This document shows, one piece after another, positions 1,735 through 34,776 of a stretch of DNA of 64,000 nt (position 1 is the first letter of the stretch; each line of letters opens with the position of its first letter). Source of the stretch: a virus; the IMG/VR virus record IMGVR_UViG_3300017971_000200, positions 62,001 to 126,000 of that record, one strand, 5' to 3'. The position numbers and the translations under genes are program-made. The notes beneath the pieces were generated by a model. It was given only the letters and a program-made list of their open reading frames with translations. It was not told the origin of the DNA and did not search any database.

Positions 1735-1740
1735 GTTTAG

Positions 1741-1822
1741 TACCTTCGGAGAGATTCGAACTCTCATGTCCTTTGGACGCTGGTTTCTAAAACCAGTGTG
1801 TATGCCGTTCCACCACGAAGGC
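1741..1822 (-). tRNA. tRNA-Leu(TAG)
   Basis: Class II tRNA, acceptor GCCTTCG/CGAAGGT, anticodon stem CTGGT/ACCAG with loop TTTAGAA (TAG). Confidence 0.9.
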
Positions 1823-1828
1823 AAATAG

Positions 1829-1902
1829 TGCGGGAAGTAGGTTTTGTATCCTACAACTTCGGGCTTACTCACCCGATGTTTTTTCTCTTAAACTATTCCC
1901 AC
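1829..1902 (-). tRNA. Aberrant tRNA-like gene, anticodon uncertain
   Basis: tRNA-length (74 bases) cloverleaf with acceptor GTGGGAA/TTCCCGC and D-stem GTTT/AAAC. The anticodon stem TCGGG/CCCGA carries an 8-base loop TGAGTAAG. The T-stem GTAGG/CCTAC has a loop without TTC (ATACAAAA). A sister gene at 3427-3499 shares GGGAATAGTTTAA and CCTACTTCCC. It may be a degenerate or specialised tRNA. Confidence 0.45.
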
Positions 1903-1905
1903 TTG

Positions 1906-1980
1906 TGATGTCGACGGGATTCGAACCCGCATTTACCAGATTGAAAGTCTGGTGTCCTACTCCATTTAGACGACGACATC
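1906..1980 (-). tRNA. tRNA-Glu(TTC), copy 2
   Basis: Acceptor GATGTCG/CGACATC, anticodon stem CCAGA/TCTGG with loop CTTTCAA (TTC). Second Glu isoacceptor, unlike the copy at 869-941. Confidence 0.85.
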
Positions 1981-1986
1981 AATTTG

Positions 1987-2058
1987 AGCTACCTACAGGA
2001 ATCGAACCCGTAACTTGGGCTTACAAAACCCTTGTTTTCCCAGTTAAACTAAGGCAGC
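1987..2058 (-). tRNA. tRNA-Thr(TGT)
   Basis: Acceptor GCTGCCT/AGGTAGC, discriminator T, anticodon loop TTTGTAA (TGT). Confidence 0.87.
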
Positions 2059-2067
2059 ATTCATTTG

Positions 2068-2140
2068 AGCTCCCGATCGGCATCGAACCGATACCACCAA
2101 CTTACCAAGCTGGTATTCTATCCAATTAAACTACAGGAGC
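2068..2140 (-). tRNA. tRNA-Thr(GGT)
   Basis: Acceptor GCTCCTG/CGGGAGC, anticodon stem CCAGC/GTTGG with loop TTGGTAA (GGT). Confidence 0.88.
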
Positions 2141-2147
2141 AACTCAG

Positions 2148-2221
2148 GGTGATCGTCGGGATTCGAACCCGAACCAGCCGAGTCACAATCGACTATGCTC
2201 ACCATTTACACCACGATCACC
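2148..2221 (-). tRNA. tRNA-His(GTG)
   Basis: Anticodon loop TTGTGAC (GTG). The extra G-1 opposite discriminator C, which marks tRNA-His, is encoded. Confidence 0.92.
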
Positions 2222-2228
2222 ATATAAG

Positions 2229-2302
2229 CGAGACCGAAGGGATTCGAACCCTCAGCTACCGGATAGACAGTCCGGTGTGTTGACCAATTACACCACGGCC
2301 CC
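2229..2302 (-). tRNA. tRNA-Asp(GTC)
   Basis: Acceptor GGGGCCG/CGGTCTC, discriminator G, anticodon stem CCGGA/TCCGG with loop CTGTCTA (GTC). Confidence 0.92.
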
Positions 2303-2362
2303 AAATGAACCAAACTCCATTATCATCCGCACGGTTAGTCGGCTTGATCAATTTCATTTGGT
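2303..2362 (-). ncRNA. Structured spacer RNA
   Basis: Sixty bases without an ORF. Minus-strand ends CAAATGAA and TTCATTTG are perfectly complementary and enclose CCGACTAACCGTGCGG. Another of the self-paired inserts in the array. Confidence 0.35.
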
Positions 2363-2366
2363 TTAG

Positions 2367-2438
2367 CTTCTCCAATAGGATTCGAACCTATATCTCCGCC
2401 CCGATTGGGCAGTGTCCTTTCCTTTAGACGATAGAGAA
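2367..2438 (-). tRNA. tRNA with non-standard anticodon loop (CAATCGG)
   Basis: Good acceptor (TTCTCTA/TGGAGAA), D-arm and T-arm (ATAGG-TTCGAAT-CCTAT). The anticodon stem CTGCC/GGCGG holds loop CAATCGG, with A instead of the near-universal T at position 33 and formal anticodon ATC. It may be a decayed gene, an edited tRNA or a different register. Confidence 0.5.
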
Positions 2439-2536
2439 AACGAAACAAAGTGATCAACTTTATATTTCGCCGTGGATAGGAAAGTGATCAGCTCTCCAGC
2501 CCCACTATACCATTGGCATATAAAACCAATGATGTT
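2439..2536 (-). ncRNA. Structured spacer, function unknown
   Basis: No ORF. Contains an ATTGG/CCAAT hairpin and two TGATCAC blocks that can pair through the TGATCA palindrome. Confidence 0.25.
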
Positions 2537-2537
2537 G

Positions 2538-2608
2538 CTGACCCACATGGATTCGAACCATGAACTTCTGATTCAAAGTCAGAGATGTTACCATTACACC
2601 ATGAGCCA
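2538..2608 (-). tRNA. tRNA-Gln(TTG)
   Basis: Acceptor TGGCTCA/TGGGTCA, anticodon stem TCTGA/TCAGA with loop CTTTGAA (TTG), discriminator G. Confidence 0.9.
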
Positions 2609-2611
2609 ATA

Positions 2612-2706
2612 TAAAAAGAATCTCGATATGTTGTGTTAAGTTCCTCATAGGGCAGACGTAACTCCTAAACAACATATCAGCCGTTCTGCTACTCATTGAT
2701 TCTTTT
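2612..2706 (-). ncRNA. Long nested-stem spacer RNA
   Basis: Minus strand AAAAGAATC/GATTCTTTT (9 bp) encloses GATATGTTGT/ACAACATATC (10 bp), which encloses a third imperfect stem. This is the strongest fold among the spacers and has no tRNA features. It could be a processing substrate or a stable small RNA. Confidence 0.45.
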
Positions 2707-2785
2707 GTCCGCGCGGTTGGAATCGAACCAACGTGTAACCTACTACTCTTTCTACGCCTTATCAGAGCGAGGAGATACGCGCGGA
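2707..2785 (-). ncRNA. tRNA-like RNA with 8-bp acceptor, no anticodon arm
   Basis: 79 bases with an 8-bp TCCGCGCG/CGCGCGGA end stem and a GTTGG-TTCGATT-CCAAC T-arm. The middle forms CTCT/AGAG with a 14-base loop instead of D and anticodon arms. The loop size matches the RNAs at 1426-1734. Confidence 0.45.
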
Positions 2786-2795
2786 TATTTTTTCG

Positions 2796-2868
2796 TACTC
2801 TCGGCCGGATTCGAACCGACATTGTTGGTTTCGTAGACCAAAGTCCTATCCTATTGAACGACGAGAGC
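2796..2868 (-). tRNA. tRNA-Arg(ACG)
   Basis: Acceptor GCTCTCG/CGAGAGT, anticodon stem TTGGT/ACCAA with loop CTACGAA (ACG). A34 would need deamination to inosine by host TadA to read CGN fully. Confidence 0.9.
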
Positions 2869-2874
2869 ATATTA

Positions 2875-3060
2875 GCTTCACGAGTGAGATTCGAACTCAT
2901 TGTCTCAGTCGGGCACTTAACCGCATCGACAGTTTAACTTGTCCAACTCTTATCCGGAAAAGAGTAGAAACGTTCATGTTTCGCGAGAACATTACTAAGT
3001 TTCCAGAGGAACTCACCGAAGAAAGTGAGCGACGATTCACCACATCGTCCAGTCGTGAAA
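2875..3060 (-). ncRNA. Large tRNA-like ornate RNA 3
   Basis: 186-base segment with complementary ends TTTCACGA/TCGTGAAG and a TGAG-TTCGAAT-CTCA T-arm next to the 3' end. Between them are successive perfect hairpins: GACGAT/ATCGTC, CTCAC/GTGAG, TTCC/GGAA, ATGTT/AACAT, ACTCTT/AAGAGT and GTCG/CGAC. No anticodon and no tag ORF were found, and it lacks the GGGG start of tmRNA. Confidence 0.45.
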
Positions 3061-3169
3061 TATATTGTCTTAGCAGACAAGGAGCGTTCGGCATCGTCCT
3101 ACTCTATCCTTTTCCCCTTATTTATGTTACCAGCCACTAATGAGTGTCAGGTGGGTAAGTCTACCATTG
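3061..3169 (-). other. Non-coding spacer in tRNA array
   Basis: No ORF or tRNA. Contains a TTGTCT-GCTA-AGACAA hairpin and a GGTA/TACC hairpin, otherwise featureless. Confidence 0.3.
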
Positions 3170-3253
3170 TGAGAGCAATAGGATTCGAACCTATACAGCC
3201 GTTAGGCACCGGGTTTACAATCCGGCTCAGCTCACCGTCTCTGAAGTGCTCCC
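3170..3253 (-). tRNA. tRNA-Tyr(GTA)
   Basis: Acceptor GGGAGCA/TGCTCTC, D-stem TCAG/CTGA, loop TTGTAAA (GTA), long class II variable arm as in bacterial tRNA-Tyr. Confidence 0.88.
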
Positions 3254-3346
3254 AAAAATGTGTGTTTCCATTTTGAACTACAACTGTATGACTTATGTCA
3301 GTGTTGCAGGATCGAGAACGTGTACACACCAAACCAAACTCTTAGC
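3254..3346 (-). other. Non-coding spacer in tRNA array
   Basis: No ORF. Small hairpins TGAC-ATAA-GTCA and AATG/CATT. No tRNA signature. Confidence 0.3.
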
Positions 3347-3419
3347 TTACCCGCTCAGATTCGAACTGAGGTCTCACGGCTTAACAGGCCGGCGTTTTAG
3401 ACCGCTAATACTACGGGCA
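3347..3419 (-). tRNA. tRNA-Asn(GTT)
   Basis: Acceptor TGCCCGT/GCGGGTA, anticodon loop CTGTTAA (GTT), canonical CTCAG-TTCGAAT-CTGAG T-arm. Confidence 0.87.
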
Positions 3420-3426
3420 AATATGG

Positions 3427-3499
3427 TATGGGAAGTAGGATTTTCACCCACAACTCCACCCGACTAAAGGCAGTATTTTGTATTTTAAACTATTCCCAT
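3427..3499 (-). tRNA. Aberrant tRNA-like gene, anticodon uncertain
   Basis: First gene after the array promoter. 73 bases, acceptor ATGGGAA/TTCCCAT, D-stem GTTT/AAAT, T-stem GTGGG/CCTAC whose loop TGAAAAT lacks TTC. Loop TTTAGTC would give TAG, but the anticodon stem has two mismatches and there is no class II arm. Sister of 1829-1902. Confidence 0.4.
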
Positions 3500-3547
3500 A
3501 TGTAAATTTTATGTCAAAGAACTTCTATTGTTTCACAACAATACTAT

Positions 3548-9584: not shown

Positions 9585-9811
9585 TTCTCTACCTCTTTTT
9601 TATATGTCGCCTGACACACTCGACAACGATATACAATAGTATAATCAAGATACTGCCCATCGTCGTCCTCTTTAATCTCCAAACACTTCTCCGTATATAA
9701 GTGTTCCTCTTTACAATTATGCTCGCCAACATATCGGGGACGCGGAACTACATCCACGTGCCCGATTGTTAACCCCAAATCCCTTAATTTCTTGTACTCT
9801 TTACTCAACAT
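9581..9811 (-). CDS. Zinc-binding-type small protein
   Basis: Start chosen at MLSKEYKKLRDLG because AAGG sits six bases upstream; a longer in-frame reading to 9832 exists. NCKEEH, a central Cys and CRVC near the C-terminus suggest a metal site. Start overlaps the 3' end of the HD-Pnk gene. Confidence 0.65.
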   Translation of the reverse strand: MLSKEYKKLRDLGLTIGHVDVVPRPRYVGEHNCKEEHLYTEKCLEIKEDDDGQYLDYTIVYRCRVCQATYKKEVEK

Positions 9812-10862
9812 AAATAACCTTATTGAACTCACTCTTTAAAGATTGTTCACCTTTCTTGAATAATTTATATTGTTTACGGATAATTGATTCCGGTACAACT
9901 GATCTATCAACTCCATTTTCTATATCCTTGTTTACTCGTTCTAATGAAGTTTCTACATCAGATTCAAATACAACGGCTATCTTTTGCGCACCATTGAAAT
10001 CAGCCATAAACTCAACTCTCAACCATTTATTTACATTGGTAGCATCCAAATACACTTTACCATATCTACGTAACGCGACTTTCATTCTTATTTTCGCGGT
10101 TGGCCAAACTTCAGCATTCATAGATTGATCGGAAACATCACCGGTCAACTCTCTACGAATATCGTCTGGCGAAACAATGTATTTTGGATCAACATTTTTT
10201 AAATAACGAGATTTACCTGAACCAGATATTCCAACCATTACATATACCTTTTTACTGGAATGTCTTTGTTTGAAATATACCCACTTTTCTTTGATAACGT
10301 TTTTCAACCTATCAGACCAATCGGATTCTTTCAAATATAATTGTTTGGATATAACCTTGTCAGCGGTAATAAAATCATCTAAATCGGGATCATCTTGTAA
10401 CTTCTTGTGACCCGGATTCAAATCCATATGTTTATCAATCATACGATAAGTTAAATCATAATGTTTGATTCTATTTTTTATAGATTCTAAATACTTTATA
10501 GATTCTTTTGGATGTCCAAAAGCATATATACGATCATTACCTACATTAGTCTTAGTTCCCTTACCATAATCATGTAAAAAAGCTGCTTCTAACAAATCAG
10601 GACGTTTTAATTTCCATACAGCCATTACTACATAATAAGTGTGATAAAAAGCATCAAACTCAGGGTGATGGTTCAAACCTTGTGGAACGCCCTCTAAAGC
10701 GTTTACAACCTTAGCGGTAATATCATATTCACGTAACGCTCTTTTCCATTCCTCTATATAAGTAGCATTAGTAACAATTCTACGTTGTGGATATTCACGA
10801 ACAATCGCCCGTGAACATAACCAAGTTTCAACCAATATGTTTTTTAAACTTTGTTGTGCCAT
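9801..10862 (-). CDS. HD-Pnk: HD phosphoesterase fused to polynucleotide kinase
   Basis: 353 residues. The N-terminal half is an HD domain (HHPEFDAFYHTYYV, FLHDYGKGTK, IDKHMDLNPGHK). From about residue 205 a P-loop kinase follows (VYVMVGISGSGKS, SPDDIRRELTG, DATNVNK). This is the architecture of Runella HD-Pnk, which removes 2',3'-phosphates and phosphorylates 5'-OH ends of broken RNA. It prepares ends for the RNA ligase encoded one gene upstream, so tRNA repair after anticodon-nuclease attack is the likely role. Confidence 0.88.
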   Translation of the reverse strand: MAQQSLKNILVETWLCSRAIVREYPQRRIVTNATYIEEWKRALREYDITAKVVNALEGVPQGLNHHPEFDAFYHTYYVVMAVWKLKRPDLLEAAFLHDYGKGTKTNVGNDRIYAFGHPKESIKYLESIKNRIKHYDLTYRMIDKHMDLNPGHKKLQDDPDLDDFITADKVISKQLYLKESDWSDRLKNVIKEKWVYFKQRHSSKKVYVMVGISGSGKSRYLKNVDPKYIVSPDDIRRELTGDVSDQSMNAEVWPTAKIRMKVALRRYGKVYLDATNVNKWLRVEFMADFNGAQKIAVVFESDVETSLERVNKDIENGVDRSVVPESIIRKQYKLFKKGEQSLKSEFNKVIYVE

Positions 10863-10884
10863 AATAACCTCTTTTCTTACCTAT

Positions 10885-10913
10885 AAGTTACAAAACTTTT
10901 TACTAAATGTCAA
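10885..10913 (-). promoter_or_regulatory. Promoter for HD-Pnk
   Basis: TTGACA, 17 bases, TAACTT on the minus strand, 22 bases upstream of the HD-Pnk start. It overlaps the last codons of the HD-GYP gene. The -10 is weaker than in the other copies. Confidence 0.65.
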
Positions 10914-11511
10914 GTGTTTTTTTCAATATTTTTTCCTTTTCTAATACCTTATGTAACGCTTGTAAAATAAACAACTCATACTCTTTTCCTGCTCTCGCAT
11001 ACATATGAGTAATAACATTCTTTGGATCAAAACCCTTTCGATATGGGCGATCCTGCGTCATAGCATCATAAACATCAACTATCGCTAATATCTGGGCGAG
11101 CCCGTTGAACTCCGTTCCCTTTAAACCATTTGGATAACCTGTACCATTCAACTTCTCATGATGTTGCTCAACTATCTCAGCTTCAGCATCCATACCAAGT
11201 GACCGTAAAATCGTAGCACTGTCTGATGGATGTTGTTTGATACTCTCATATTCTTCGCCAGTTAATTTACCGGGTTTAAATAAAATACCCTTTGGTATCT
11301 TGATTTTTCCCACATCATGATAATACGCTGCACGTGTTACCAGGTTCGCGGTTTTCAAGTCTAAACCCAACTCTTGGGCGACCATCTTAACAATCCTACC
11401 AACCCTTAAAGAATGTTTTTGGGTATAATCAGAGTCCTCTACGGCTTTCAGAAGACTCATTGTGATTAATACCCTTTGATAGTCTATTTCAAATTTAGTG
11501 TCCTTTGCCAT
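10903..11511 (-). CDS. HD-GYP domain phosphodiesterase
   Basis: 202 residues covering a full HD-GYP catalytic core: HSLRVGRIVKMVAQELG, AAYYHDVGKIKIPKGIL, IKQHP, EQHHEKLNGTGYPNGLKG, IVDVYDAMTQDRPYRKG. Family members hydrolyse c-di-GMP or cGAMP-type dinucleotides. It has no sensor domain. It could lower host c-di-GMP or destroy cyclic-dinucleotide alarm signals of CBASS-type defence (inference). Sits between the two RNA-repair genes and overlaps the ligase stop. Confidence 0.9.
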   Translation of the reverse strand: MAKDTKFEIDYQRVLITMSLLKAVEDSDYTQKHSLRVGRIVKMVAQELGLDLKTANLVTRAAYYHDVGKIKIPKGILFKPGKLTGEEYESIKQHPSDSATILRSLGMDAEAEIVEQHHEKLNGTGYPNGLKGTEFNGLAQILAIVDVYDAMTQDRPYRKGFDPKNVITHMYARAGKEYELFILQALHKVLEKEKILKKTLDI

Positions 11512-12691
11512 TTATTTTCTCTACCAATAAATTTTTTATTCGTTTTAATCCCTTTTGTTCGTACAATCCATGTATTACATCTATCGCCTTTAATTCAGGT
11601 TTATCTACCATAGTGAAAATAAATCCAACTCGATCACGTTTGATTTTATCTTGTATCTCTAACGCTAACTCTTTACGAGACATTTCAGGCGCTCTTTTTC
11701 TATAATACTCACCCTCTTTAGATAAATATTCAATCAATTCAAAATACCTTTTTTTCAACAACTTATATTCTTCTTTTACGGAATCAGGTAACTTGTCCAA
11801 ATATACTTCAAATTCTTCTTCCTCGTTGTCCAATAAAACACCTACCAAGTTGTTAGTCACACCCTCGCCAGTAGCTACATGGTGTAAATGAACATACTTT
11901 GGCGACTTAACTTTTACTCGACCAACTACTAAATCATCTTTGAACTGAACAACTATAAATCCCTCAAATCCATTTCCCTTTTCATTCTCTTTATCAGCAA
12001 TTTCAGATAATTCGGAAACATCCTTAACATCTTTCAAATCAAACAATCTTGGAAAACGTATAGAATATCCCTTGAACATCTTTTCGTATTTCTTCTTTAT
12101 GGATTTATGGAATATATTAAAGTCACGTAATTCACCATCGTTTTCTTTTAAACCAATGAAAACTAACTCTTTTACGCCTTCATAATCAACTACTATTTGA
12201 TTTGATGGATGTACCAACTCAAACATATAAGTCAAATTTGGCGAAAATTCCGCAGTTAACTTTTCAAAATCTTCTTTAGAAACTACATCAAAGAAAATCT
12301 TGGAAAAAGAAATTCCATCCATATTAGACGCATCATCAGCATCAATAGTTCCATTAGTTGCTACTCTCCATTCACCATCATAAAAATATACTTTTATAAT
12401 AGAACCATCTACCTTTTCAACTACATAAGAATCATCTAATATCAAATTGTAAGCATATATTTCACCGTAGTTGAAAAACTTATCAAATGGATGCGCAACT
12501 ATATTCCAAGTTCCCTTTTCTAATATGATACCACGAGATTCTTTTACAATCTTGTTAGAGAAATCGGAATTAAACTGATTATACTTGAATATAACTAAGT
12601 TATCCTTAGCATTAATATGCAAGTTGAACGGGTCTTTACGTAAATCATCTAAAGACCGTATTTTCAATATTTTTTGTAAGTTCAATTTCAC
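11495..12691 (-). CDS. RNA ligase, T4 Rnl1 type
   Basis: 398 residues, GTG start with GGAG upstream. The nucleotidyl-transfer motif KVDGS (about residue 94), SRGIILE, TYMFELVHPSN, FEGFIVV and RVKVKSPKYV correspond to ligase motifs I, Ia/III, IV and V. The C-terminal helical domain resembles the tRNA-specific part of Rnl1. It seals 3'-OH/5'-P RNA ends made by the neighbouring HD-Pnk. A promoter lies just upstream. Confidence 0.88.
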   Translation of the reverse strand: MKLNLQKILKIRSLDDLRKDPFNLHINAKDNLVIFKYNQFNSDFSNKIVKESRGIILEKGTWNIVAHPFDKFFNYGEIYAYNLILDDSYVVEKVDGSIIKVYFYDGEWRVATNGTIDADDASNMDGISFSKIFFDVVSKEDFEKLTAEFSPNLTYMFELVHPSNQIVVDYEGVKELVFIGLKENDGELRDFNIFHKSIKKKYEKMFKGYSIRFPRLFDLKDVKDVSELSEIADKENEKGNGFEGFIVVQFKDDLVVGRVKVKSPKYVHLHHVATGEGVTNNLVGVLLDNEEEEFEVYLDKLPDSVKEEYKLLKKRYFELIEYLSKEGEYYRKRAPEMSRKELALEIQDKIKRDRVGFIFTMVDKPELKAIDVIHGLYEQKGLKRIKNLLVEKINGKGH

Positions 12692-17981: not shown

Positions 17982-18650
17982 TTAAGATAATAATTCTAAT
18001 AATCCATTTATTATTGTTTCTTTATTTTTACGATAATCTTTTTCCCAAATAACAATAACGTTAAATCCCATTGATTCTAATAGTTGTTTTTTTTCTTTAT
18101 CATATTTCCATATTTCTTTTGCTTTAATTTTCTTTTTGTTTTTTGTTATCAAATGATTTTTATCATATACATTTGGATTAGCATGCCAGTAATCTCCATT
18201 ATATTCTACAATTATATTTTTGTTAGGTACAAATATATCTACAAAATACTTTTCAATATGTTTTTGTTTTTCAACTTGTATTTTATTTTTTGTTAATATA
18301 TTTATTATTTCTATTTCAGCTTTTGATGATCTTCCTTTTTGCCAACGAACATCTGAATTGTTCCATATCATTGATTTTTTCATTTTATCATAAAAATTTT
18401 TATCTTTCCATTTTTCTTTAAGAGTTTTACTTATAGAGTTTTTGTGTTCTTGACTTAACTTTTTTCCTATCTTTGCATTTGTTATATTTTTTTTGTGAGA
18501 TTCGGTTTTTGATTTTCCGGATAACGCATTAGATAGATTCTTTTTATGTTCTTCTGAAAAGGGTTTTTTGTTTTTTTGACTACGTTGCATTTTTTCTCTA
18601 TATTCCGGATCGGCCCATAACCTTTTCATTTTTTCAGATCTTGATTCCAT
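17982..18650 (-). CDS. Free-standing homing endonuclease (NUMOD3 plus Vsr-like nuclease)
   Basis: 222 residues. The N-terminal half has repeated NUMOD3-type DNA-binding units (FSEEHKKNLSNALSGK, LSQEHKNSISKTLKE). The C-terminal half is a Vsr-like PD-(D/E)XK fold (YFVDIFVPNKNIIVEYNGDYWH, then LLESMGFNVIVIWEKDY), the EDxHD homing-enzyme arrangement. Lower G+C and Lys/Asn richness than neighbours fit a mobile gene. It lies 62 bases from the RNase P RNA, a possible homing target. Confidence 0.85.
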   Translation of the reverse strand: MESRSEKMKRLWADPEYREKMQRSQKNKKPFSEEHKKNLSNALSGKSKTESHKKNITNAKIGKKLSQEHKNSISKTLKEKWKDKNFYDKMKKSMIWNNSDVRWQKGRSSKAEIEIINILTKNKIQVEKQKHIEKYFVDIFVPNKNIIVEYNGDYWHANPNVYDKNHLITKNKKKIKAKEIWKYDKEKKQLLESMGFNVIVIWEKDYRKNKETIINGLLELLS

Positions 18651-18663
18651 ATAATTTTCCCCT

Positions 18664-18681
18664 TTATAATAAATATAAAGG
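18664..18681 (-). promoter_or_regulatory. Hairpin/ATATTTAT box upstream of homing endonuclease
   Basis: CCTTTAT/ATAAAGG hairpin with an ATATTTAT core 15 bases before the ATG. It may be a promoter of the second class or sequester the ribosome site. Confidence 0.35.
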
Positions 18682-18711
18682 TTTTCATTTTTTTAATAAC
18701 CTCTTAAAAAA

Positions 18712-18914
18712 GTAATTATTTCCTGTAGCCAGGATTCTGTCGTTTAAGATAGTCATTTATCTTTATGTGGCCTCAACCTTGCTATTATCGACCCGCTCAC
18801 CGTCTAAGCTATTTTGAGTTGCATCCTCAGTGGTACAAACGACTTTCGTCTCCCATCTTAAGCAGCGATGTCCTGAGCTTCCTCTCCGTAGAGCGACTAT
18901 CCAGAAATAATTAC
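18712..18914 (-). ncRNA. rnpB: RNase P RNA, compact bacterial type
   Basis: 203-base RNA. The 3' part has AAATGACTATC, ACGACAGAATCCTGGCT, almost the universal CR-V sequence (E. coli AGATGAATGACTGTCC and ACGACAGAACCCGGCTT). The 5' part has GAGGAAGCTCAGGAC (CR-I). P1 is a 13-bp GTAATTATTTC end stem, P2 is GATAGTC/GACTATC, P3 is a tiny CTCT-ACGG-AGAG. P4 pairs AGC-(T)-CAGGA with TCCTGGCT and keeps the bulged T of the catalytic core. P8-like GAC-GAAA-GTC and the ATGCAACTC block mark a shrunken specificity domain. The 3' end runs into TTTTTT. It is expected to trim the 5' ends of phage tRNA precursors with host RnpA. Confidence 0.92.
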
Positions 18915-19417
18915 TCTTTTGGTATTTCTACATTGACCATATCAAAACTATAATACTCTCTATAATATGTGTCAAGGATTAATTTCTTCACATCATAATT
19001 ATGATGATTTATATCATACAAAGTTTCTACATAAACTCCAGGTGTTTTCTTGTCTATATTCAATATCTCCGACAACGCCAGAGCGACAGCAGGCGACCGT
19101 GACAAACCTGCCTCACAATGAATCATAAAGTTTTTGTGTTTTTTATTTTTCAATCCAAACTCAATGATTTTTCGAGCATCACTATCATCAATTTGTTTTG
19201 GTTTAACTACCTCATAAAATGATGAAATTGTACCGTCTGCCCGTTCATCATGAAATCGAAGATACAAAACATCTTTCATAAGTGGATTTTTCACCACTTC
19301 ATATTGTGGATGTTCCGGCGACACTATTGATATACAACTAAATGGTACATCAATTTTGCTCATAAAACCTTGATCAGTAGCCATAGCTACATTGACTACA
19401 ATAAATCTTATATTCAT
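18911..19417 (-). CDS. Dual-specificity/tyrosine phosphatase
   Basis: About 168 residues, start at MNIRFIVVN with AAGG seven bases upstream. FMIHCEAGLSRSPAVALAL is the HCxxGxxRS signature of Cys-dependent phosphatases, and FHDE upstream may hold the general acid. Such phage enzymes dephosphorylate host proteins or nucleotides. The stop codon overlaps the first bases of the RNase P RNA. Confidence 0.85.
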   Translation of the reverse strand: MNIRFIVVNVAMATDQGFMSKIDVPFSCISIVSPEHPQYEVVKNPLMKDVLYLRFHDERADGTISSFYEVVKPKQIDDSDARKIIEFGLKNKKHKNFMIHCEAGLSRSPAVALALSEILNIDKKTPGVYVETLYDINHHNYDVKKLILDTYYREYYSFDMVNVEIPKE

Positions 19418-19427
19418 ACACAACCTT

Positions 19428-20076: not shown

Positions 20077-20094
20077 TGTATTTCTCCGGTTTAG

Positions 20095-20178
20095 CGGAAG
20101 ATAAAGGGATTGAACCTTTGATCCCAAAGGGAAGCCTCGGTTTTCGAAACCGGCACATTACCACTCTGTCAATCTTCC
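20095..20178 (-). tRNA. tRNA-Ser(CGA)
   Basis: Class II tRNA, acceptor GGAAGAT/ATCTTCC, discriminator G, loop TTCGAAA (CGA), long variable arm. Confidence 0.9.
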
Positions 20179-20234
20179 ATATAGTCATTGACTTCTATTC
20201 GCCTCATTATCAATGACCTTTTCTCGTTTGAGTG

Positions 20235-20318
20235 CGGAGAGTATAGGGATTGAACCTATGCAGGGAAACCCCGGCCTCCGCTTTCCAAGCGGGCACATTA
20301 CCACTCTGTCAACTCTCC
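20235..20318 (-). tRNA. tRNA-Ser(GGA)
   Basis: Class II tRNA, acceptor GGAGAGT/ACTCTCC, discriminator G, loop TTGGAAA (GGA). Confidence 0.9.
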
Positions 20319-20324
20319 AATATT

Positions 20325-20633
20325 TTATTTCAACATCAAACGGTACGGATGTGTTTTTTGGTTTAAAGTGACTACTCTTTTTGTAGTACAAAAATCATTG
20401 ATCAATGGAATATGAGTATTGATTAAATCCAATAAATGATTCGCTTGTGTCATTGTATCAAACATTATTTTGATTTCTTCAAGACCAATTTCATATCCTC
20501 TAAATCCCGGCAAATCAGCATGAAAAACTTTTCTTATTTTTTCATATTGTGTATTATGAGCATCCGTCCATTCTGATATATCGTGTGTAGTCAGCCACGT
20601 ATCAACACTTATTTTTACTATTACACCTATCAT
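20325..20633 (-). CDS. Unknown protein, 102 aa
   Basis: Alpha/beta protein beginning MIGVIVKISVDTWLTTHD. GGAGAAATTAA precedes the start. Located just before two tRNA-Ser genes. No family recognised. Confidence 0.68.
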   Translation of the reverse strand: MIGVIVKISVDTWLTTHDISEWTDAHNTQYEKIRKVFHADLPGFRGYEIGLEEIKIMFDTMTQANHLLDLINTHIPLINDFCTTKRVVTLNQKTHPYRLMLK

Positions 20634-20672
20634 TTAATTTCTCCTGTATAGGTTTATATTTTATGTGTGACC

Positions 20673-20765
20673 TTATTCACTTAACATAATATATAACGTT
20701 GCCATACCGGAAATTATAAACACTCCAAGAATTCCGCCTACCACTAATGATAATATTATTTCCAT
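20673..20765 (-). CDS. Tiny membrane protein, 30 aa
   Basis: One hydrophobic helix (MEIILSLVVGGILGVFIISG). The ATG overlaps the stop of the upstream gene (TAATG), a clear coupling signal. Confidence 0.55.
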   Translation of the reverse strand: MEIILSLVVGGILGVFIISGMATLYIMLSE

Positions 20766-21055
20766 TAAGCGTGATTTGTTTTCATCCTTTCAATTTCAAC
20801 TTCCAATGAATTATCATTTCGTAATTCAACATCATTTTTAATTTGTGGCATTTTCTCTTTTTTGTCCGAAACTGCTTCTATATAATCACCAATCATTTTA
20901 TCCATCGCGTCACTATTATCCATAAGTGGAGTTTCACCTTCAATTTCCACCGTAACAGTTTCATATTTATCTTTTTTACCAAAAGCCTTTTCCCAATTAT
21001 CCACATATTCATCATATGTAACATTCATCGGTCTCGGTTTATCACCTTTACTCAT
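20765..21055 (-). CDS. Acidic protein, 96 aa
   Basis: Hydrophilic, helical C-terminal half; no motif. Overlaps genes on both sides. Confidence 0.65.
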   Translation of the reverse strand: MSKGDKPRPMNVTYDEYVDNWEKAFGKKDKYETVTVEIEGETPLMDNSDAMDKMIGDYIEAVSDKKEKMPQIKNDVELRNDNSLEVEIERMKTNHA

Positions 21056-21257
21056 TGTTTAACCTCTTTTCATTCTTATTCATTAACATTGTTGGTTTAC
21101 TATAATCTGCTGGTTCGGAATATGAATATACCATTTCACATTCACAATAACCACAAATCGGAATATCGCTATCTTCGGCGACAACCCTAACATATTTCCT
21201 ACCATAATTTTTATAATGTTTACAACCTACATATTCACATAAAAATATATCACTCAA
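21048..21257 (-). CDS. Zinc-ribbon-like protein, 69 aa
   Basis: TTG start with GGAGAGG six bases upstream. CEYVGC and CGYCEC give a four-to-five Cys metal site. Function unknown. Confidence 0.65.
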   Translation of the reverse strand: MSDIFLCEYVGCKHYKNYGRKYVRVVAEDSDIPICGYCECEMVYSYSEPADYSKPTMLMNKNEKRLNNE

Positions 21258-21270
21258 TAAACCTCTCCAT

Positions 21271-21285
21271 ATTTACATATAAATA
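21271..21285 (-). promoter_or_regulatory. ATATTTATA promoter-like box
   Basis: ATATTTATA on the minus strand about 20 bases before the start at 21257, with no TTGACA upstream. Confidence 0.35.
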
Positions 21286-21291
21286 TATAAG

Positions 21292-21519
21292 TTATTTTGT
21301 TTCCTCTTTTTTTCCAAAATACTTTTTCAATATAAGATGAAATACAAATAATGATATCGGAAACGCTAAAATATTACTCAATAAATCGGTATTTATTTTA
21401 CTCGTATCTCCACCAAGAGCAAAAACTAATAAACCTATAATAAATCCCGCTCCAAAAGCAAATACAATATATCTCCATACAAACGACCACCAAACTTCCA
21501 ATGTCTTTCCAAATTCCAT
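21292..21519 (-). CDS. Two-pass membrane protein, 75 aa
   Basis: Helices at about 13-33 and 42-62, Lys-rich C-terminus. AAGGAGAAAGTT precedes ATG. Confidence 0.7.
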   Translation of the reverse strand: MEFGKTLEVWWSFVWRYIVFAFGAGFIIGLLVFALGGDTSKINTDLLSNILAFPISLFVFHLILKKYFGKKEETK

Positions 21520-21529
21520 AACTTTCTCC

Positions 21530-21949
21530 TTAGTTTAAATACCACATATACCAACTAAATACATTTAATAATAAAAAGGCGACCCACAAAATGACTTGTG
21601 ACCATACTTTCTTTTTTATCGCCCAATAAATCCAAAAAAAGTTTGATACTATCCATACTGGCCAACACCATATCACTTTTAATCCACATAATACAATCCC
21701 TATAAGTGAAAATGTAGTAGCAATACGACCTATAATAGTTAACTTTTTCTTTTCTTTACCTTCCCAATCAAACTCTTTTAGGTTTACATTTCCTATCTTT
21801 ACAGGATCAACTTTTTTAGTTTTCCCTACAGCCTTTTCTATTGTTTTTTTCGCTTGTGTTGCTGCGGCTTTATTCTTTTCTTCCTCAATTATTGGATCAA
21901 ATGTTTTATCAAGTTCTTGTGTAAAATCATCTAAATTATCATCTGCCAT
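21530..21949 (-). CDS. Membrane protein with acidic cytosolic domain, 139 aa
   Basis: Start at MADDNLDDFTQ because AAGGGGG sits five bases upstream. N-terminal half hydrophilic, then three hydrophobic segments ending in a Trp-rich stretch. Unknown. Confidence 0.7.
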   Translation of the reverse strand: MADDNLDDFTQELDKTFDPIIEEEKNKAAATQAKKTIEKAVGKTKKVDPVKIGNVNLKEFDWEGKEKKKLTIIGRIATTFSLIGIVLCGLKVIWCWPVWIVSNFFWIYWAIKKKVWSQVILWVAFLLLNVFSWYMWYLN

Positions 21950-21983
21950 ATAACCCCCTTGCGTTGATTTGTACATAACTAAG

Positions 21984-22069
21984 CGGAAGATGTAGGATTC
22001 GAACCCACGCTACCAAAGGTAGACCTCGGTTTTCAAAACCGGTGCATTACCAGACTCTGCCAATCTTCC
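21984..22069 (-). tRNA. tRNA-Ser(TGA)
   Basis: Class II tRNA, acceptor GGAAGAT/ATCTTCC, loop TTTGAAA (TGA), discriminator G. Confidence 0.9.
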
Positions 22070-22074
22070 AAAGT

Positions 22075-22121
22075 GGCGGGAGTTTAAAAACATCAACTCT
22101 TGATCACCACCTACTCCCGCT
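22075..22121 (-). ncRNA. Nested-stem spacer RNA between Ser tRNAs
   Basis: GCGGGAGT/ACTCCCGC (8 bp) encloses ATCAA-GAG-TTGAT. Compact version of the spacer RNAs of the main array, again between two tRNA genes. Confidence 0.4.
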
Positions 22122-22151
22122 TAGTATGATGAATAGACCTGATGCTATGAG

Positions 22152-22237
22152 CGGAGAGTACAGGATTCGAACCTGTGTGTCCAAAGGACAACCTCCGGGT
22201 AGCAACCGGGTACATTACCTGACTCTGTCAACTCTCC
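22152..22237 (-). tRNA. tRNA-Ser(GCT)
   Basis: Class II tRNA, acceptor GGAGAGT/ACTCTCC, loop TTGCTAC (GCT), discriminator G. Completes all four Ser anticodon classes. Confidence 0.9.
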
Positions 22238-22242
22238 ATATA

Positions 22243-22617
22243 TTATTTCATTTTCTTTTCTGCTAACTTTATTACTTGTTTTAAATATTTTACATATAAT
22301 TTAAAATCTTTTTCTAAATTTGATGGTTTATACGGAATTTTTTTCTTAACAACAGGATCATGACTTCCATCTAATACATCAAATAAAAAATTAATTGGCG
22401 GATAATCATATCCCGCGGAAGCAATTATTATCCAATCATCTTCTGGCGAACCTTTTCTATCACTATGCCAGTATACAAGTCCGTCCCTGGAATCCCATTC
22501 AGCTTCCCAACCATCAATTTTTTTGTTATTAACTTTTTTACCAATATAATTATCTAAATCAGCAGGATATTCATCTAAATCAATTTTCTCTACTAATTTT
22601 TTCATCTTTATCGACAT
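22243..22617 (-). CDS. Unknown protein, 124 aa
   Basis: MSIKMKKL start shared with the gene at 22965, followed by an acidic alpha/beta region rich in Trp and Asp. May be a paralogous pair or only share the first residues. Confidence 0.65.
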   Translation of the reverse strand: MSIKMKKLVEKIDLDEYPADLDNYIGKKVNNKKIDGWEAEWDSRDGLVYWHSDRKGSPEDDWIIIASAGYDYPPINFLFDVLDGSHDPVVKKKIPYKPSNLEKDFKLYVKYLKQVIKLAEKKMK

Positions 22618-22619
22618 TC

Positions 22620-22844
22620 TTATTCTCCATATAAGTCATTTAGTTCAACAATCATATCGTCCATATCTTCTAAAATTTCCTTGTCTCTTTCTTCGCCGTT
22701 GTCTTTAAAATATTCACTTTTTAATTGATTAAAGTCACGACGATGTTGAATAATTTTTCGTCTATCATCCCCACTTTGCATGGCGACTCTCCACATATCC
22801 ATAAAATGATTCATTTTTTTACGTATAATTTCGCGTTTAGTCAT
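22620..22844 (-). CDS. Helical protein, 74 aa
   Basis: Basic N-terminus (MTKREIIRKKMNHFMD) and acidic C-terminus; likely two helices. Unknown. Confidence 0.65.
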   Translation of the reverse strand: MTKREIIRKKMNHFMDMWRVAMQSGDDRRKIIQHRRDFNQLKSEYFKDNGEERDKEILEDMDDMIVELNDLYGE

Positions 22845-22869
22845 TTACTTTCTCCACATAATAAATTTG

Positions 22870-22959
22870 AGTCGGTGACAGGATTTGAACCTGCGACAGG
22901 GTTTCCCCTTTTGCTGGTTTTGCAGACCAGCCCCTTAGACCAGACTCGGGCACACCGAC
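22870..22959 (-). tRNA. Class II tRNA-Cys(GCA) with long variable arm
   Basis: Acceptor GTCGGTG/CACCGAC with discriminator T, the cysteine identity base. Anticodon stem CTGGT/ACCAG with loop CTGCAAA (GCA). The variable region is long (AAGGGGAAACCC-type arm), whereas ordinary tRNA-Cys is class I. Confidence 0.85.
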
Positions 22960-26664: not shown

Positions 26665-28926
26665 TTAAGTTCCATCTAATATTTCTCTTATCTTTCTCGC
26701 CAATGATGTCGGCGTCACAGGTTTCTGAATAAAATTAGTTCCAGGATCTAATACCCCACGATGAACTATTGTGTTATCGGTGTAACCGGACATATACAAA
26801 ACTTTTAGATTTGGTATAAAATCACTTAACTGGATCGCAAGTTCTCTACCGTCCATTCTCGGCATCACGACATCAGTCACCAACATATTTATTTTTGTTT
26901 GATTATTTTTCATCACTTCTATAGCTTCAATACCATTGGACGCACAAATAACTTTATATCCCATATCTCTTAACGCGTCACAAAGTAATAGACGAACTTC
27001 TTTTTCATCTTCTACTAATAACAATGATTCATTTCCACTATAATCTAATATCTCTCCATTTATTTGTATTTCGTTTTTTGTCTCTCTATCCACTCTTGGC
27101 AAATATACCTTGAACGCCGTTCCTTGTCCAATCTCACTATATACCCAAACAAAACCACCACTTTGTTTTATTATTCCATACGCCGTAGACAATCCTAAAC
27201 CAACTCCCTTACCCATTTCTTTTGTCGTAAAAAATGGTTCAAAGATTCTTTCTTTTGTCGCCATATCCATTCCAACACCATCATCCGTAACAGAAAACAT
27301 TATGTAACGACCTTTATCAATCATCTTTTGTTTTCGTTCAACGTGATCTTCATCAAAATATATATTTTTTGTCTCAAGTCTAATCAATCCTACATCTTGT
27401 TCAGGTATAGCATCCCGAGCATTGATTATCATATTCATCATAACCAAACTAATTTGATTGACATCAACAAAACAATTACCCAAATCAGGATCAAGATGTT
27501 TAGCGATTTCTATATCTTCTCTTATCAGTGTCGCCAAAACTTTTATTTCATTTTCAAGAATGTTATTTAAGTTAACAACTTCTGGCGTCAAAATTTGTTT
27601 TCTACTAAAAGCAAGAAGTTGTTTTGTAAGTGCCTCGGCTCTATCAGCCGCATTATCTATTTTTTCTAATTTTGTTTGTAAATATATATGTGGTTCTGTT
27701 TCAGGACATTTTTGACTTCTCCTAATAAGAAGTTCAGTGTGACCACGAATAACGGTAAGAATGTTATTGAAATCGTGAGCAACTCCACCCGCTAATAAAC
27801 CAATAGCTTCCAATTTAGCAGCTTGTCGTAATTGTTCTTCAAGATTTAATTTTTCTGATATATCATAAAAAATTACAAGTATAGATTGTTTATTTTTATA
27901 TATTATTGGTTTAGCAACAACTTCAACATCTATGATACTACCATCTTTTTTAAAGAATTTTTCGTCTAACGGTTCATTAGTTTCTCCTGTTTCTATCATA
28001 TTTTTTATTCTTCCTTTAACAACACTTCTATAATCAGGATGAACATAATCCATTACTTTGTCGCCAACCAAATCTTTATAATTGTCAGCTCCAATTAATT
28101 GACATGCAGCAGGATTGGCGAAAACAATCTCCATACTTTTTATATTGTAAACTATGATTGAAGATGGTAAAAGTTCCACTAAATCTTTATATTGTCTTTC
28201 AAGAGATTCAAGTTTTAGTTTTTCACTTATATCATTGAACAAAACCATACTTGCTTTTTGATTCTTATAAGTTATTAATTTAGAAATCACTTCCATTTCA
28301 ATAGCTTCTTTTTTATCATGTGATAAAAATTTCATTCTACTCGCTGGACAATATCCTTTTTCTTGTAATTCCTTTATTCGCCGTTTTCCTTCCTCAATAG
28401 AATCAGGATGGACGGATTCAAAAACACTTTCAGGTTTATCATCGTCCAATGGACGATTTATCATTTTTCTCGCTTGTTTGTTGGAAAATAATTTTTGTTT
28501 TGTTTTTAAACTATAAACTGCCATTCCGATTGGCAAAAGTTCAACTAAATCTTCATAGTATTGTTCTTTTTCTATTTGTTTAGTAATATCTATACCAAAA
28601 CTTAAAAATGTATTATTTGGAGTTATTTCTGCAGAAAATAAACCATGACGTGTTTCACCATTTTTATGTAATATGGTAAACTCTCTATTTAATACTTTAC
28701 CTTTTTCACGTAATTCATTACTAATCGCGATCCGTTCTTCCGGATACTTCCACATATTAAATTCAAGAGAAGTTTTACCAATTATTTCTTCTCGTGCATA
28801 ACCGGTCATTTCACAAAATAAATCATTTACTTTTATAAACTTTCCAGTGTCCAATTCGCTATATGCTACCGCAATAGGTAACGAACCATATACTTTATCA
28901 AATGAAATTGTTATATCGTCGTTCAA
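26665..28926 (-). CDS. Hybrid sensor histidine kinase (three PAS, HisKA, HATPase, REC)
   Basis: 753 residues, TTG start with GGAGAG upstream. Three PAS domains (about 10-120, 125-240, 245-365), the last two with the same LVELLPxxIxVY opening. The H-box is IGLLAGGVAHDFNNILTVIR. An ATP domain follows (MNMIINARDAIPEQ N-box, VTDDGVGM, GVGLGLSTAYGIIKQSGG). A C-terminal receiver has VEDEKE, TDVVMPRMDG, YMSGY and QKPVT. No transmembrane helix, so a soluble sensor. Rare in phages. It may relay to the receiver at 14462 or to host regulators. Confidence 0.93.
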   Translation of the reverse strand: MNDDITISFDKVYGSLPIAVAYSELDTGKFIKVNDLFCEMTGYAREEIIGKTSLEFNMWKYPEERIAISNELREKGKVLNREFTILHKNGETRHGLFSAEITPNNTFLSFGIDITKQIEKEQYYEDLVELLPIGMAVYSLKTKQKLFSNKQARKMINRPLDDDKPESVFESVHPDSIEEGKRRIKELQEKGYCPASRMKFLSHDKKEAIEMEVISKLITYKNQKASMVLFNDISEKLKLESLERQYKDLVELLPSSIIVYNIKSMEIVFANPAACQLIGADNYKDLVGDKVMDYVHPDYRSVVKGRIKNMIETGETNEPLDEKFFKKDGSIIDVEVVAKPIIYKNKQSILVIFYDISEKLNLEEQLRQAAKLEAIGLLAGGVAHDFNNILTVIRGHTELLIRRSQKCPETEPHIYLQTKLEKIDNAADRAEALTKQLLAFSRKQILTPEVVNLNNILENEIKVLATLIREDIEIAKHLDPDLGNCFVDVNQISLVMMNMIINARDAIPEQDVGLIRLETKNIYFDEDHVERKQKMIDKGRYIMFSVTDDGVGMDMATKERIFEPFFTTKEMGKGVGLGLSTAYGIIKQSGGFVWVYSEIGQGTAFKVYLPRVDRETKNEIQINGEILDYSGNESLLLVEDEKEVRLLLCDALRDMGYKVICASNGIEAIEVMKNNQTKINMLVTDVVMPRMDGRELAIQLSDFIPNLKVLYMSGYTDNTIVHRGVLDPGTNFIQKPVTPTSLARKIREILDGT

Positions 28927-32797: not shown

Positions 32798-33544
32798 TTA
32801 CCTCCTGTATATCGGTGGATATTTAGTTTTATGTTCATTTATCCTAATCATTTTCTTTACTTTTTCAATCTTATCGGCATGATCAATAGGATATTCTTTA
32901 CCGGTTTCAAGATAATATAGAATAGAATCTAATACATCATAACTCATTCCAATATCTTTTTCATCAGTCTGCCCTTCCCAAAGAGCAGCAGTAGGCGTTC
33001 TCTCAACCAAATCGTCGGGAATACCTAAGTTTCTCGCCATCCCTTTTACTTCCCACTTGTAATATTCTGCTATCGGAAGCACATCAACTCCACCATCACC
33101 GTATTTAGTAAAATATCCAATCATATCTTCACTCTTATTTCCGGTTCCGGCGACCAACATATTATTTTTTCCAGCGACAGCATAAAGGAAAGTCATTCTC
33201 AATCTTGCTCTTATATTCGCTTGTTCTAACCTACCCAACAAAATCGGAGCTTCCTCGACCATCGCGTTATATGTTTCTCTCATATCATAAAAGACAGTTT
33301 CAATACCAAGAAGTTTAGCAACTCTATCAGCGTCAAGTTCATCTTGTTCACCAGAATAAATCGGCATAATAACACCAATAACATTTTCTTTACCAACGGC
33401 TTTTACCGCGAGAGCGGCGACAAGAGTAGAATCAATACCACCACTCAAACCAACGACATAACCATTAGTTCCAGAAATAGTATTATAATTCTCTAACCAA
33501 CTTGCAATGTCTTTTATTTCCGGTTCAAAATTAAGATTACTCAT
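32798..33544 (-). CDS. nadE: NH3-dependent NAD+ synthetase
   Basis: 248 residues. VVGLSGGIDSTLVAALA is the PP-loop, AGTGNKSEDMIGYFTKYGDG binds the deamido-NAD, and PTAALWEGQTDE follows. No glutaminase domain, so ammonia is the donor. Final step, nicotinate adenine dinucleotide to NAD+. First gene of its unit behind the promoter at 33573. Confidence 0.93.
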   Translation of the reverse strand: MSNLNFEPEIKDIASWLENYNTISGTNGYVVGLSGGIDSTLVAALAVKAVGKENVIGVIMPIYSGEQDELDADRVAKLLGIETVFYDMRETYNAMVEEAPILLGRLEQANIRARLRMTFLYAVAGKNNMLVAGTGNKSEDMIGYFTKYGDGGVDVLPIAEYYKWEVKGMARNLGIPDDLVERTPTAALWEGQTDEKDIGMSYDVLDSILYYLETGKEYPIDHADKIEKVKKMIRINEHKTKYPPIYRR

Positions 33545-33572
33545 TTATATACCTTTCTTTATGTACTTTCTT

Positions 33573-33601
33573 AATATACAAAATTAAGTTCACTTTGTCA
33601 A
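33573..33601 (-). promoter_or_regulatory. Promoter for nadE-pncA-HAD
   Basis: TTGACA-17-TATATT on the minus strand. Overlaps the last codons (ENS-stop) of pncB. Confidence 0.87.
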
Positions 33602-34776
33602 CTGTTTTCTATAATTCTTTTCGCTAAATCTATCATTTCAGGATCACCGGTGTGTTTTCCCTCAACATCACTCAACTTGATTGTCGGTATCCATTTTTTA
33701 CCTTGTGGTTTAGCAGAAACCATCTTGATAACAATATTCAATGGAGTAACATCAGGAATATCATTAGAAAGATTAGTTCCCATTCCATATGAAATTTTAA
33801 TTCTACCATGTCCAAAATGACTATTTATTCTTTCAATTTCCTTTGGATTCAACCCATCGGAGAATACAATCGTTTTAGTTCTTGGATCAATACCAAGTTT
33901 CTTGTAATGTTCAATAGCTCTTTTTCCAAACTCAATAGGATCACCAGAATCGTGTCTAACACCATCAAATAATTTAGCATACATTGTGTCAAACGATCCA
34001 AAAAAATTCTTTGTGGTGAAAGTGTCCGTGAGTGCTATACCCAACTCTCCATTATAAACATCGACCCAACGACCAAGAGCAACAGCGTTTGCTTGATGAA
34101 AACCATATTTCGCAGCGTGAAACATAAACCATTCATGAGCTTGTGTTCCAATAGGTTTTATTCCATACTTACGAGCTAAGTGGACATTACTTGTACCAAC
34201 AAAATGATTTGATTTACTAAATGTTCTAACCATTCTACTTTGACTCTTGTAAGAATGTCGCCGTCTTGTTCCAAAATCGGCTAAACTTATAGTAGGTACT
34301 AAATCAAATAAGAAATCTCTTTTTGATTCATTATGATTTTCTATATCTCCCCAATGTACATTACCAATACCTTTACCGGTATGAATGAAATAAAGTTCTG
34401 AAATCAAAGCCATAAGCGGAACTTCCCATAAGATTGTTCTATACCATAATCCCTCAATCTCTACTGAAAGTTCACCATCATTCCAAAAAATCTTTATTTC
34501 ATCAGCGTTATAGCGATAACCTTTCAGGAAATCTATATAAACAGGATCAAAGAAATAAAGGTTTTCTCTCAAATAATCTTCCTCACCATCGGTAAGAAAA
34601 AGTTTTTCCATATCCCAAACCATGTCGCCCAAATCCTTAGCAACTGCTTCAGGAATGTAAGTTTTCCCACGATTGAAAAACTTATACTTTACTTCGGCAC
34701 GCGGGTACAACTTCGTAACTGCGTTCTGCATTGTAAACTTATATAAATCATTGTCTAAAATAGATTTGATTAACAT
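33598..34776 (-). CDS. pncB: Nicotinate phosphoribosyltransferase
   Basis: 392 residues, close to the length and motif order of bacterial PncB: LDNDLYKFTMQNAV, LWEVPLMALISEL, LADFGTRRRHS, GTSNVHLARK, GTQAHEWFM, GIALTDTFTT, RHDSGDPIEFG, VFSDGLN and ISYGMGTNL. It makes nicotinate mononucleotide from nicotinate and PRPP. It is not the NadV/NAMPT type usually found in phages. Confidence 0.93.
   Translation of the reverse strand: MLIKSILDNDLYKFTMQNAVTKLYPRAEVKYKFFNRGKTYIPEAVAKDLGDMVWDMEKLFLTDGEEDYLRENLYFFDPVYIDFLKGYRYNADEIKIFWNDGELSVEIEGLWYRTILWEVPLMALISELYFIHTGKGIGNVHWGDIENHNESKRDFLFDLVPTISLADFGTRRRHSYKSQSRMVRTFSKSNHFVGTSNVHLARKYGIKPIGTQAHEWFMFHAAKYGFHQANAVALGRWVDVYNGELGIALTDTFTTKNFFGSFDTMYAKLFDGVRHDSGDPIEFGKRAIEHYKKLGIDPRTKTIVFSDGLNPKEIERINSHFGHGRIKISYGMGTNLSNDIPDVTPLNIVIKMVSAKPQGKKWIPTIKLSDVEGKHTGDPEMIDLAKRIIENS

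Follow-up and report, generated by a model that had tools for sequence, protein, structure and literature searches.

The question raised by a short stretch of viral DNA is whether a tRNA-rich phage encodes the RNA subunit of RNase P itself. RNase P is one of a handful of RNA enzymes that almost all cells possess, and tRNA-carrying phages, for which T4 is the model, are known to use the enzyme of the host. The stretch lies within 64,000 nucleotides (positions 62,001 to 126,000; hereafter the window) of the IMG/VR record IMGVR_UViG_3300017971_000200, a linear record of 161,620 bases, and a sequence-only reading had proposed that the minus strand of the window carries a very small RNase P RNA at 18712-18914. 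A search of positions 18200-19400 against all Rfam models (cmscan) returned the bacterial class A model RNaseP_bact_a (RF00010) on the minus strand at 18710-18912, with 50.7 bits, an E-value of 2.3e-14 and an alignment that covers the whole model (1-367 of 367); the remaining four matches listed for this interval have E-values from 1.4 to 5.5. The proposed strand is thus borne out and the proposed ends were right to within 2 bases; that reading was to be given up if no covariance model matched, and a match was found. The RNA is approx. 203 nt long, whereas the RNase P RNAs detected with RF00010 in ordinary bacteria (10 of 11 genomes) measure 314-416 nt, in agreement with the unusually small size that had been claimed. 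The gathering threshold of RF00010 is 100 bits, so the score of the window RNA falls below it, and at this threshold Rfam reports tRNAs alone in the window; therefore, routine annotation would miss the RNA. In the RF00010 alignment the specificity domain is represented by 37 nt over 140 hidden model positions, and the full P7-P12 specificity domain is absent; on account of this domain and of the cut-off, the RNA is not placed in RF00010. Its single-sequence folding energy is unexceptional (z -1.57; 16 of 200 shuffled sequences are equally or more stable), hence the case rests on homology and covariation. We regard it as almost certain that the element is an RNase P RNA, of which it is a phage-borne, core-only variant.

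Counted with all of P1, the miniature RNA extends over 18706-18920 of the minus strand, on which all its parts lie (RF00010 covers 18710-18912, and the phage-only model R1 described below 18724-18887). P1 is formed by a 5' strand at 18904-18920 and a 3' strand at 18706-18722, with 17 of 17 pairs, which makes it longer than had been claimed. Inside the 5' strand lies the stop codon of the ORF directly upstream (18911-19423), which has a weak dual-specificity phosphatase match below cut-off, and the endonuclease-like ORF 17982-18650 lies downstream of the RNA. The 3' strand of P1 ends in a run of six T that is a possible terminator; a terminator scan found none. A promoter-like TTGACA-17-TATAGT at 18975-18947 is within chance (6 found, against a mean of 4.7 in shuffles). 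P2 is formed by 18895-18901 and 18748-18754 (7 of 7 pairs), its 3' strand being pseudoknotted relative to P4, and P3 is a short hairpin (18881-18894) with four pairs in the window, whose columns covary across relatives. CR-I and the 5' strand of P4 (18871-18879), with its bulged T, occupy 18870-18884, while CR-V and the 3' strand of P4 (18727-18734) occupy 18722-18740, and 8 of 8 P4 positions pair. The 5' strand of P5 (18867-18870) makes 4 of 4 pairs with GATG, and its 3' strand lies together with CR-IV at 18809-18825. The specificity domain is reduced to one 25-nt hairpin (18831-18855) with the conserved internal-loop letters GGAG ... CGTT ... AC. The L15/P15 region, assigned by sequence at 18771-18783, contains the GGU that in bacterial RNase P RNA binds the tRNA 3' CCA, and a conserved AGAnAAATG joining segment (18752-18762) precedes the 3' strand of P2. 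The GGT is invariant in the 53 rows of the model alignment; in alignment A2 it is lacking at the aligned columns of a single row, L091. All the elements named by the sequence-only reading (CR-I, CR-V, P4 with its bulged T, P1, P2 and a P3 of four pairs) are therefore present, and with them the features by which an RNase P RNA is recognized, namely P4 with the bulged U, P1-P3 with a pseudoknotted P2, and CR-IV with the P15/L15 GGU. What is kept serves catalysis and docking of the tRNA 3' end; what is lost serves to bind the tRNA elbow.

Relatives of this RNA were sought among viral sequences. By blastn, the RNA region of the window matches three annotated phage records, all of huge uncultured phages, and the matches fall inside the RNA. 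A search pattern for a short RNase P RNA was built from the window and two huge-phage records, and a scan of IMG/VR with it gave 91 stretches, 82 of which were judged real by inspection. These 82 rows, together with LR756501, LR756502 and the window, make 85 rows; removal of 23 that are at least 90% alike left 62 non-redundant rows. The contigs of the 82 IMG/VR relatives range from 4.5 to 494 kb, and the phage records reach 735 kb. The RNA family is present in at least 62 non-redundant phage loci, often inside tRNA arrays. The letters fixed by the pattern (GAGGAA, TC, GCAA, ACAGRA and GRYTW) say nothing about conservation among the 82 IMG/VR rows, and the pattern finds only part of the family, as the RNA of LR745206 differs from it. 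The gathering cut-off of RF00010 is reached by none of 50 related IMG/VR records, and in just seven of them does the model give any match to the RNA with E up to 1, which amounts to an annotation blind spot.

Single relatives differ in what they resemble. In blastn searches, relatives L045, L053 and L039 have no match among annotated phages; relative L072 matches only LR756501, LR756502 and LR756503 there, and L015 matches only over 40 bases, with 87.5% identity, the RNase P RNA annotated in a record of Salmonella. Relative L001 gives a match to the archaeal model RF00373 (32.4 bits, E 5.6e-6), and in locus L058 a second, partial RNase P RNA copy (3409-3509, minus strand) lies directly upstream of the complete one. 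The nine rejected IMG/VR pattern matches are coding sequence by inspection, the best of them scoring 14.1 bits (E 0.19) with R1. A large protein of the window, used as query in a related-locus search, gave no relative.

The 62 rows allowed the proposed structure to be examined for compensatory change, with the limit that the whole-structure measures include some columns fixed by the pattern. The named structure pairs in 96.9% of 1650 cells versus 67.3% in shuffles and 29-39% when slid; cells with changes on both sides number 476 versus 139, and the covariation score is 0.751 versus 0.198. None of 500 shuffles reaches the observed value of any of these three measures; a weaker measure, which counts the pairs that show any double change, gives 22 of 27 versus 19.5 in shuffles, and seven of 500 shuffles reach 22. 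The individual P4 pairs quoted here are free columns: 118-369, 119-368 and 120-367 are kept in all 62 rows, with 27, 30 and 7 double changes, respectively, and 121-366 is kept in 60 of 62 with 12. Overall 99.6% of P4 cells are paired, so that P4, whose covariation in related phages was at stake in the sequence-only reading, is kept with compensatory changes. Its bulged T occurs in 62 of 62 rows, a base that the search pattern fixes for the IMG/VR rows. The columns of P5 are 100% paired, and RNAalifold, unaided, finds P4 and P5 with compensatory changes. P2 is free of the pattern: in the rows with a CGC anchor, six of six pairs form in 50 of 55, versus 4.6% with partners swapped, and three rows of this test form only two of six. 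Over the 62 rows the P2 columns are 93-94% paired, with double changes at all six pairs. An unanchored helix search found P2 with at least six pairs in 57 of 62 rows versus 39% in the control, and P1 with at least seven pairs in 45 of 62 versus 35%; these controls are permissive, and the evidence relied on is the anchored test, the pair count and the pairing seen in the window RNA itself.

A second approach used a covariance model, R1, built from 53 rows, from which the window and eight rows with long inserts had been left out. R1 finds the window RNA at 18724-18887 with 122.4 bits (E 9.5e-31, R1 E-values being rough), the next best score in the 64 kb being 8.9 bits, and it recovers the other eight held-out rows at 85-115 bits. 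The RNase P loci of 10 ordinary bacterial genomes, which score 197-336 bits with RF00010, reach no more than 22.3 bits with R1, and none of these loci appeared in a whole-genome run of R1 that scored 150 candidates per genome. These low scores on bacterial RNAs indicate a family of its own and not many fresh captures. The same pattern applied to genomes gave at least 117 stretches; among those listed, a motif filter and R1 picked out four RNase P RNAs, three of them from Micrarchaeota (L124, L137 and L157, with 27.2, 49.7 and 47.9 bits), and the best R1 score among the other stretches listed is 17.6 bits. Since the Micrarchaeota RNAs match, R1 is not wholly phage-specific, and scores of 27-50 bits point to a relation between the phage and Micrarchaeota RNA cores. 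The fourth, L105, is a 3,053-base contig filed as a Roizmanbacteria MAG that carries 13 tRNAs on one strand and an RNase P RNA of 103.4 bits, and is probably a misbinned phage piece. We conclude that the RNA is conserved under selection in many diverged phages.

The context of the RNA agrees with a role in tRNA metabolism. The phage had been said to carry about 30 tRNAs, and in the window 30 are detected by ARAGORN and 27 by Rfam, all 30 of the former on the strand of the RNA. The 161,620-base record also encodes a baseplate wedge protein, two helicases (one Dda-like), an NAD-dependent DNA ligase and a thymidylate synthase; the baseplate wedge protein and the replication genes identify it as a tailed phage, and the terminase family PF03237 has no match in it. 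The main cluster of 23 tRNAs lies at 56-3420 and four tRNA-Ser and one tRNA-Cys lie upstream of the RNA at 20094-22959, all on the minus strand, and both groups are presumed substrates. The RNA has no adjoining tRNA in the window, the nearest being about 1.2 kb upstream and the first one downstream ending at 14218. After the discriminator, the window tRNA genes (56-22959) read mostly CAA (15) or CTA (7). None of the 30 encodes CCA, compared with 307 of 683 tRNAs over the 62 loci, and for this reason pairing with the GGU would be possible in the window phage only after CCA addition.

Across the 62 loci, every one of the 683 tRNAs detected by ARAGORN is on the strand of the RNA; 55 loci have at least one tRNA, and in 46 a tRNA lies within 1 kb of the RNA. 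A tRNA within approx. 60 nt is found upstream in 20 loci, downstream in 20 and on both sides in 8. The distance from the end of the CR-V motif GRYTW to the start of the next tRNA, measured in 61 loci, is 13-24 bases in 18 of them; at this distance, about one P1 strand past CR-V, the 5' cut of the tRNA would also free the 3' end of the RNA. In the 735-kb phage (locus L002, 6200-6260), a terminator-like hairpin and a T run follow the RNA, as judged by eye, which suggests the end of its transcription unit.

At 9801-12691 the window phage encodes, one after the other, an AAA_33 protein that weakly matches HD, a protein with an HD_5 domain and an RNA ligase of the T4 Rnl1 type; this is a likely tRNA-repair cassette, in which the ligase and the AAA_33 protein look like the repair pair. 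A protein of PHROG family 850 ('RNA-binding protein'), encoded in the record outside the window (L236, 2156-3853), may bear on RNA handling. Two ORFs (50865-52142 and 54915-55529) carry type IX secretion C-terminal sorting domains, the first well above the cut-off and the second just at it, which we take to point to a Bacteroidota host; these phage proteins are possibly secreted. Bacteroidetes hosts have been predicted for phage genomes larger than 634 kb (Al-Shayeb 2020, PMC7162821). The window also encodes a hybrid histidine kinase with PAS domains and a response-regulator receiver (26665-28926), and an NAD synthetase beside a nicotinamide phosphoribosyltransferase-like gene (32798-34776); with a nicotinamide-nucleotide adenylyltransferase gene elsewhere in the record, the latter two make up a phage NAD salvage set.

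Bacterial RNase P RNA works with the protein RnpA, and the distribution of this protein (PF00825) among the phages is uneven. No match was found in the 161-kb record of the window or in the 735-kb phage; matches above the cut-off occur in LR756502 (642 kb) and in one of the 50 IMG/VR records searched, of 476 kb, many of the 50 being likely fragments. Because RnpA is found in so few records, most of the phage RNAs would need the RnpA of the host. The proteins of the 642-kb and 476-kb records are 56% identical and share the motif KKFKRAVDRNR(I/V)KRLM; known RnpA structures match the protein of the 476-kb record with E-values of 3.4e-4 and 5.1e-4, and PHROG families give no match to either protein up to E 0.01. 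Further RnpA relatives were found by tblastn in LR745206, in a 4.9-kb record (GenBank unverified) and in three more IMG/VR contigs. The RNA is present in four of the seven viral records with an RnpA relative, of 476, 642 (LR756502), 634 (LR745206) and 58 kb, and the three without it are pieces of 159, 15.7 and 4.9 kb. The RNAs of LR745206 and of the 58-kb record have GAGAAAC in CR-I instead of the GAGGAA of the pattern, and as they were found only through the protein and differ in CR-I, they constitute a check that is independent of the pattern; the RNA of the 58-kb record scores lower, with 57.6 bits. In the RnpA-bearing phages L231 (1460-1690) and L233 (1490-1720), the RNAs share the changed CR-I GAGAAAC and a changed CR-V, and such RNAs are perhaps a sub-family that goes with phage RnpA.

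From these results we propose that the RNA probably functions in the phage as an RNase P RNA, maturing phage tRNAs together with RnpA, and we infer that it is catalytic. The RNA would pair with RnpA, that of the host in the case of the window phage (as far as the 161-kb piece shows) and that of the phage itself in the huge relatives, and the two would cut the 5' leaders off phage tRNA precursors, including long polycistronic tRNA transcripts. With the specificity domain nearly gone, docking of the precursor would occur not through the tRNA elbow but mainly through its 3' end at the GGU and through the leader, which RnpA would hold. A bacterial catalytic domain alone is described as still cleaving, although less efficiently (PMC5839562). 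The gain for the phage would be tRNA maturation without dependence on the host rnpB, so that phage tRNAs could still be supplied once host RNAs have been shut down or come under attack. For T4-infected cells, the RNase P RNA of the host is reported to be relatively stable and has been suggested to serve the phage tRNAs (PMC9697503), hence the need for a phage copy would not be universal.

Other explanations have to be weighed. The fold might be kept as a decoy that binds or holds host RnpA or pre-tRNAs and so slows the host RNase P; the near loss of the specificity domain would fit this, and so would the presence of an RnpA gene in only one of the 50 IMG/VR records, since the RNA would then compete for the host protein. 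However, a decoy would have no need of covariation in P4, P5, P2 and P15 or of the GGU, and it is not expected to go with a phage RnpA or to lie in tRNA arrays, so that we consider it unlikely. It is also quite unlikely that the RNA, though active as a ribozyme, acts mainly on targets other than phage tRNAs, such as host RNAs, messages of the phage or structures that resemble tRNAs: the CCA-binding GGU is retained, and tRNAs, without exception on the strand of the RNA, accompany it in 55 of the loci, even though in the stretch examined the other seven have no tRNA detected by ARAGORN. In favour of such other targets, recognition of the tRNA elbow should be looser with the specificity domain nearly gone, as would be expected from the role described for that domain (PMC5839562).

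Two further readings are less likely still. A captured host gene in decay could be much shortened and fall below the Rfam cut-off, and the broken second copy beside the complete one in locus L058 is what decay would leave; nevertheless, the RNA is common to many diverged phages with hundreds of compensatory changes, and R1 matches the 10 bacterial RNase P loci only weakly, which makes this reading very improbable. We give equally little credit to cellular contamination, that is, to contigs that are pieces of bacterial chromosomes. The window's record is metagenome-derived and lacks a PF03237 terminase match, and the relative L105 is on a 3-kb contig filed as a Roizmanbacteria MAG; against this stand the baseplate wedge protein and phage replication genes of the record, and the RNA also occurs in huge phage records of 634, 642 and 735 kb. 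Complete curated phage genomes of 634, 636, 642 and 735 kb have been reported (Al-Shayeb 2020, PMC7162821).

Returning to a functional phage RNase P RNA, we lean slightly towards the broader view that phages own an RNase P lineage that serves host-independent tRNA maturation and whose evolution has been separate from that of the enzyme in any present host; its core-only RNA ranges over tRNA-rich phage sequences from small contigs to 735-kb genomes, and in some of the largest a phage RnpA would complete it to a viral RNase P holoenzyme. An RNase P RNA of their own, in some huge phages with its protein, would alter the picture in which phages use the host enzyme only; the phage RNAs would offer natural minimal RNase P ribozymes for work on structure and mechanism, and the takeover of tRNA maturation by a phage would become directly testable. 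No report of a phage RNase P RNA was found in the literature searched, whose scope leaves bioRxiv and most subscription journals outside, so that an earlier report is possible. RNase P is unmentioned in the main text of Al-Shayeb 2020 (PMC7162821) and of a paper on jumbo-phage comparative genomics (PMC7824862), and it has no occurrence in a 2026 jumbo-phage review.

Among the closest known systems is bacterial class A RNase P RNA (RF00010), with which the phage RNA shares an alignment over 1-367, CR-I, CR-IV and CR-V, P1-P5, the P15 GGU and the bulged U of P4; it differs in being shorter, with a reduced specificity domain and a score below gathering, and in being phage-encoded. The archaeal type T (= type P) RNase P RNA of Pyrobaculum (RF02357) likewise joins a catalytic domain that is kept to a specificity domain that is degenerate (PMC5839562, PMC4919922). 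The window RNA has this architecture, and the likeness is one of architecture only; the RF02357 model (RNaseP-T), searched up to E 10, matches nothing in the 161-kb record, and for that reason the RNA is kept out of type T. The RNase P RNAs of CPR bacteria are divergent, some of them without P12 (PMC8172020), and like the phage RNA they miss helices of the specificity domain and score below model cut-offs; they differ in that they are cellular and belong to the cell's own enzyme. For two megaphages, Lui 2021 (PMC8172020) reports that Rfam showed only tRNAs and a tmRNA. Theta ribozymes lie beside phage tRNAs and have been proposed to process them without certain host nucleases (PMC10879173), and are thus alike as phage ribozymes proposed for the processing of phage tRNAs; they are, however, self-cleaving HDV-like ribozymes that act in cis on 3' trailers, whereas the phage RNase P RNA would act in trans on 5' leaders. 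The tRNA precursors of T4 are cut by the host RNase P (PMC11143913, PMC9697503). Both T4 and the window phage bring tRNA precursors and RNase P together, in the latter case as we infer, but T4 uses the host enzyme, whereas the window phage encodes an RNA subunit of its own.
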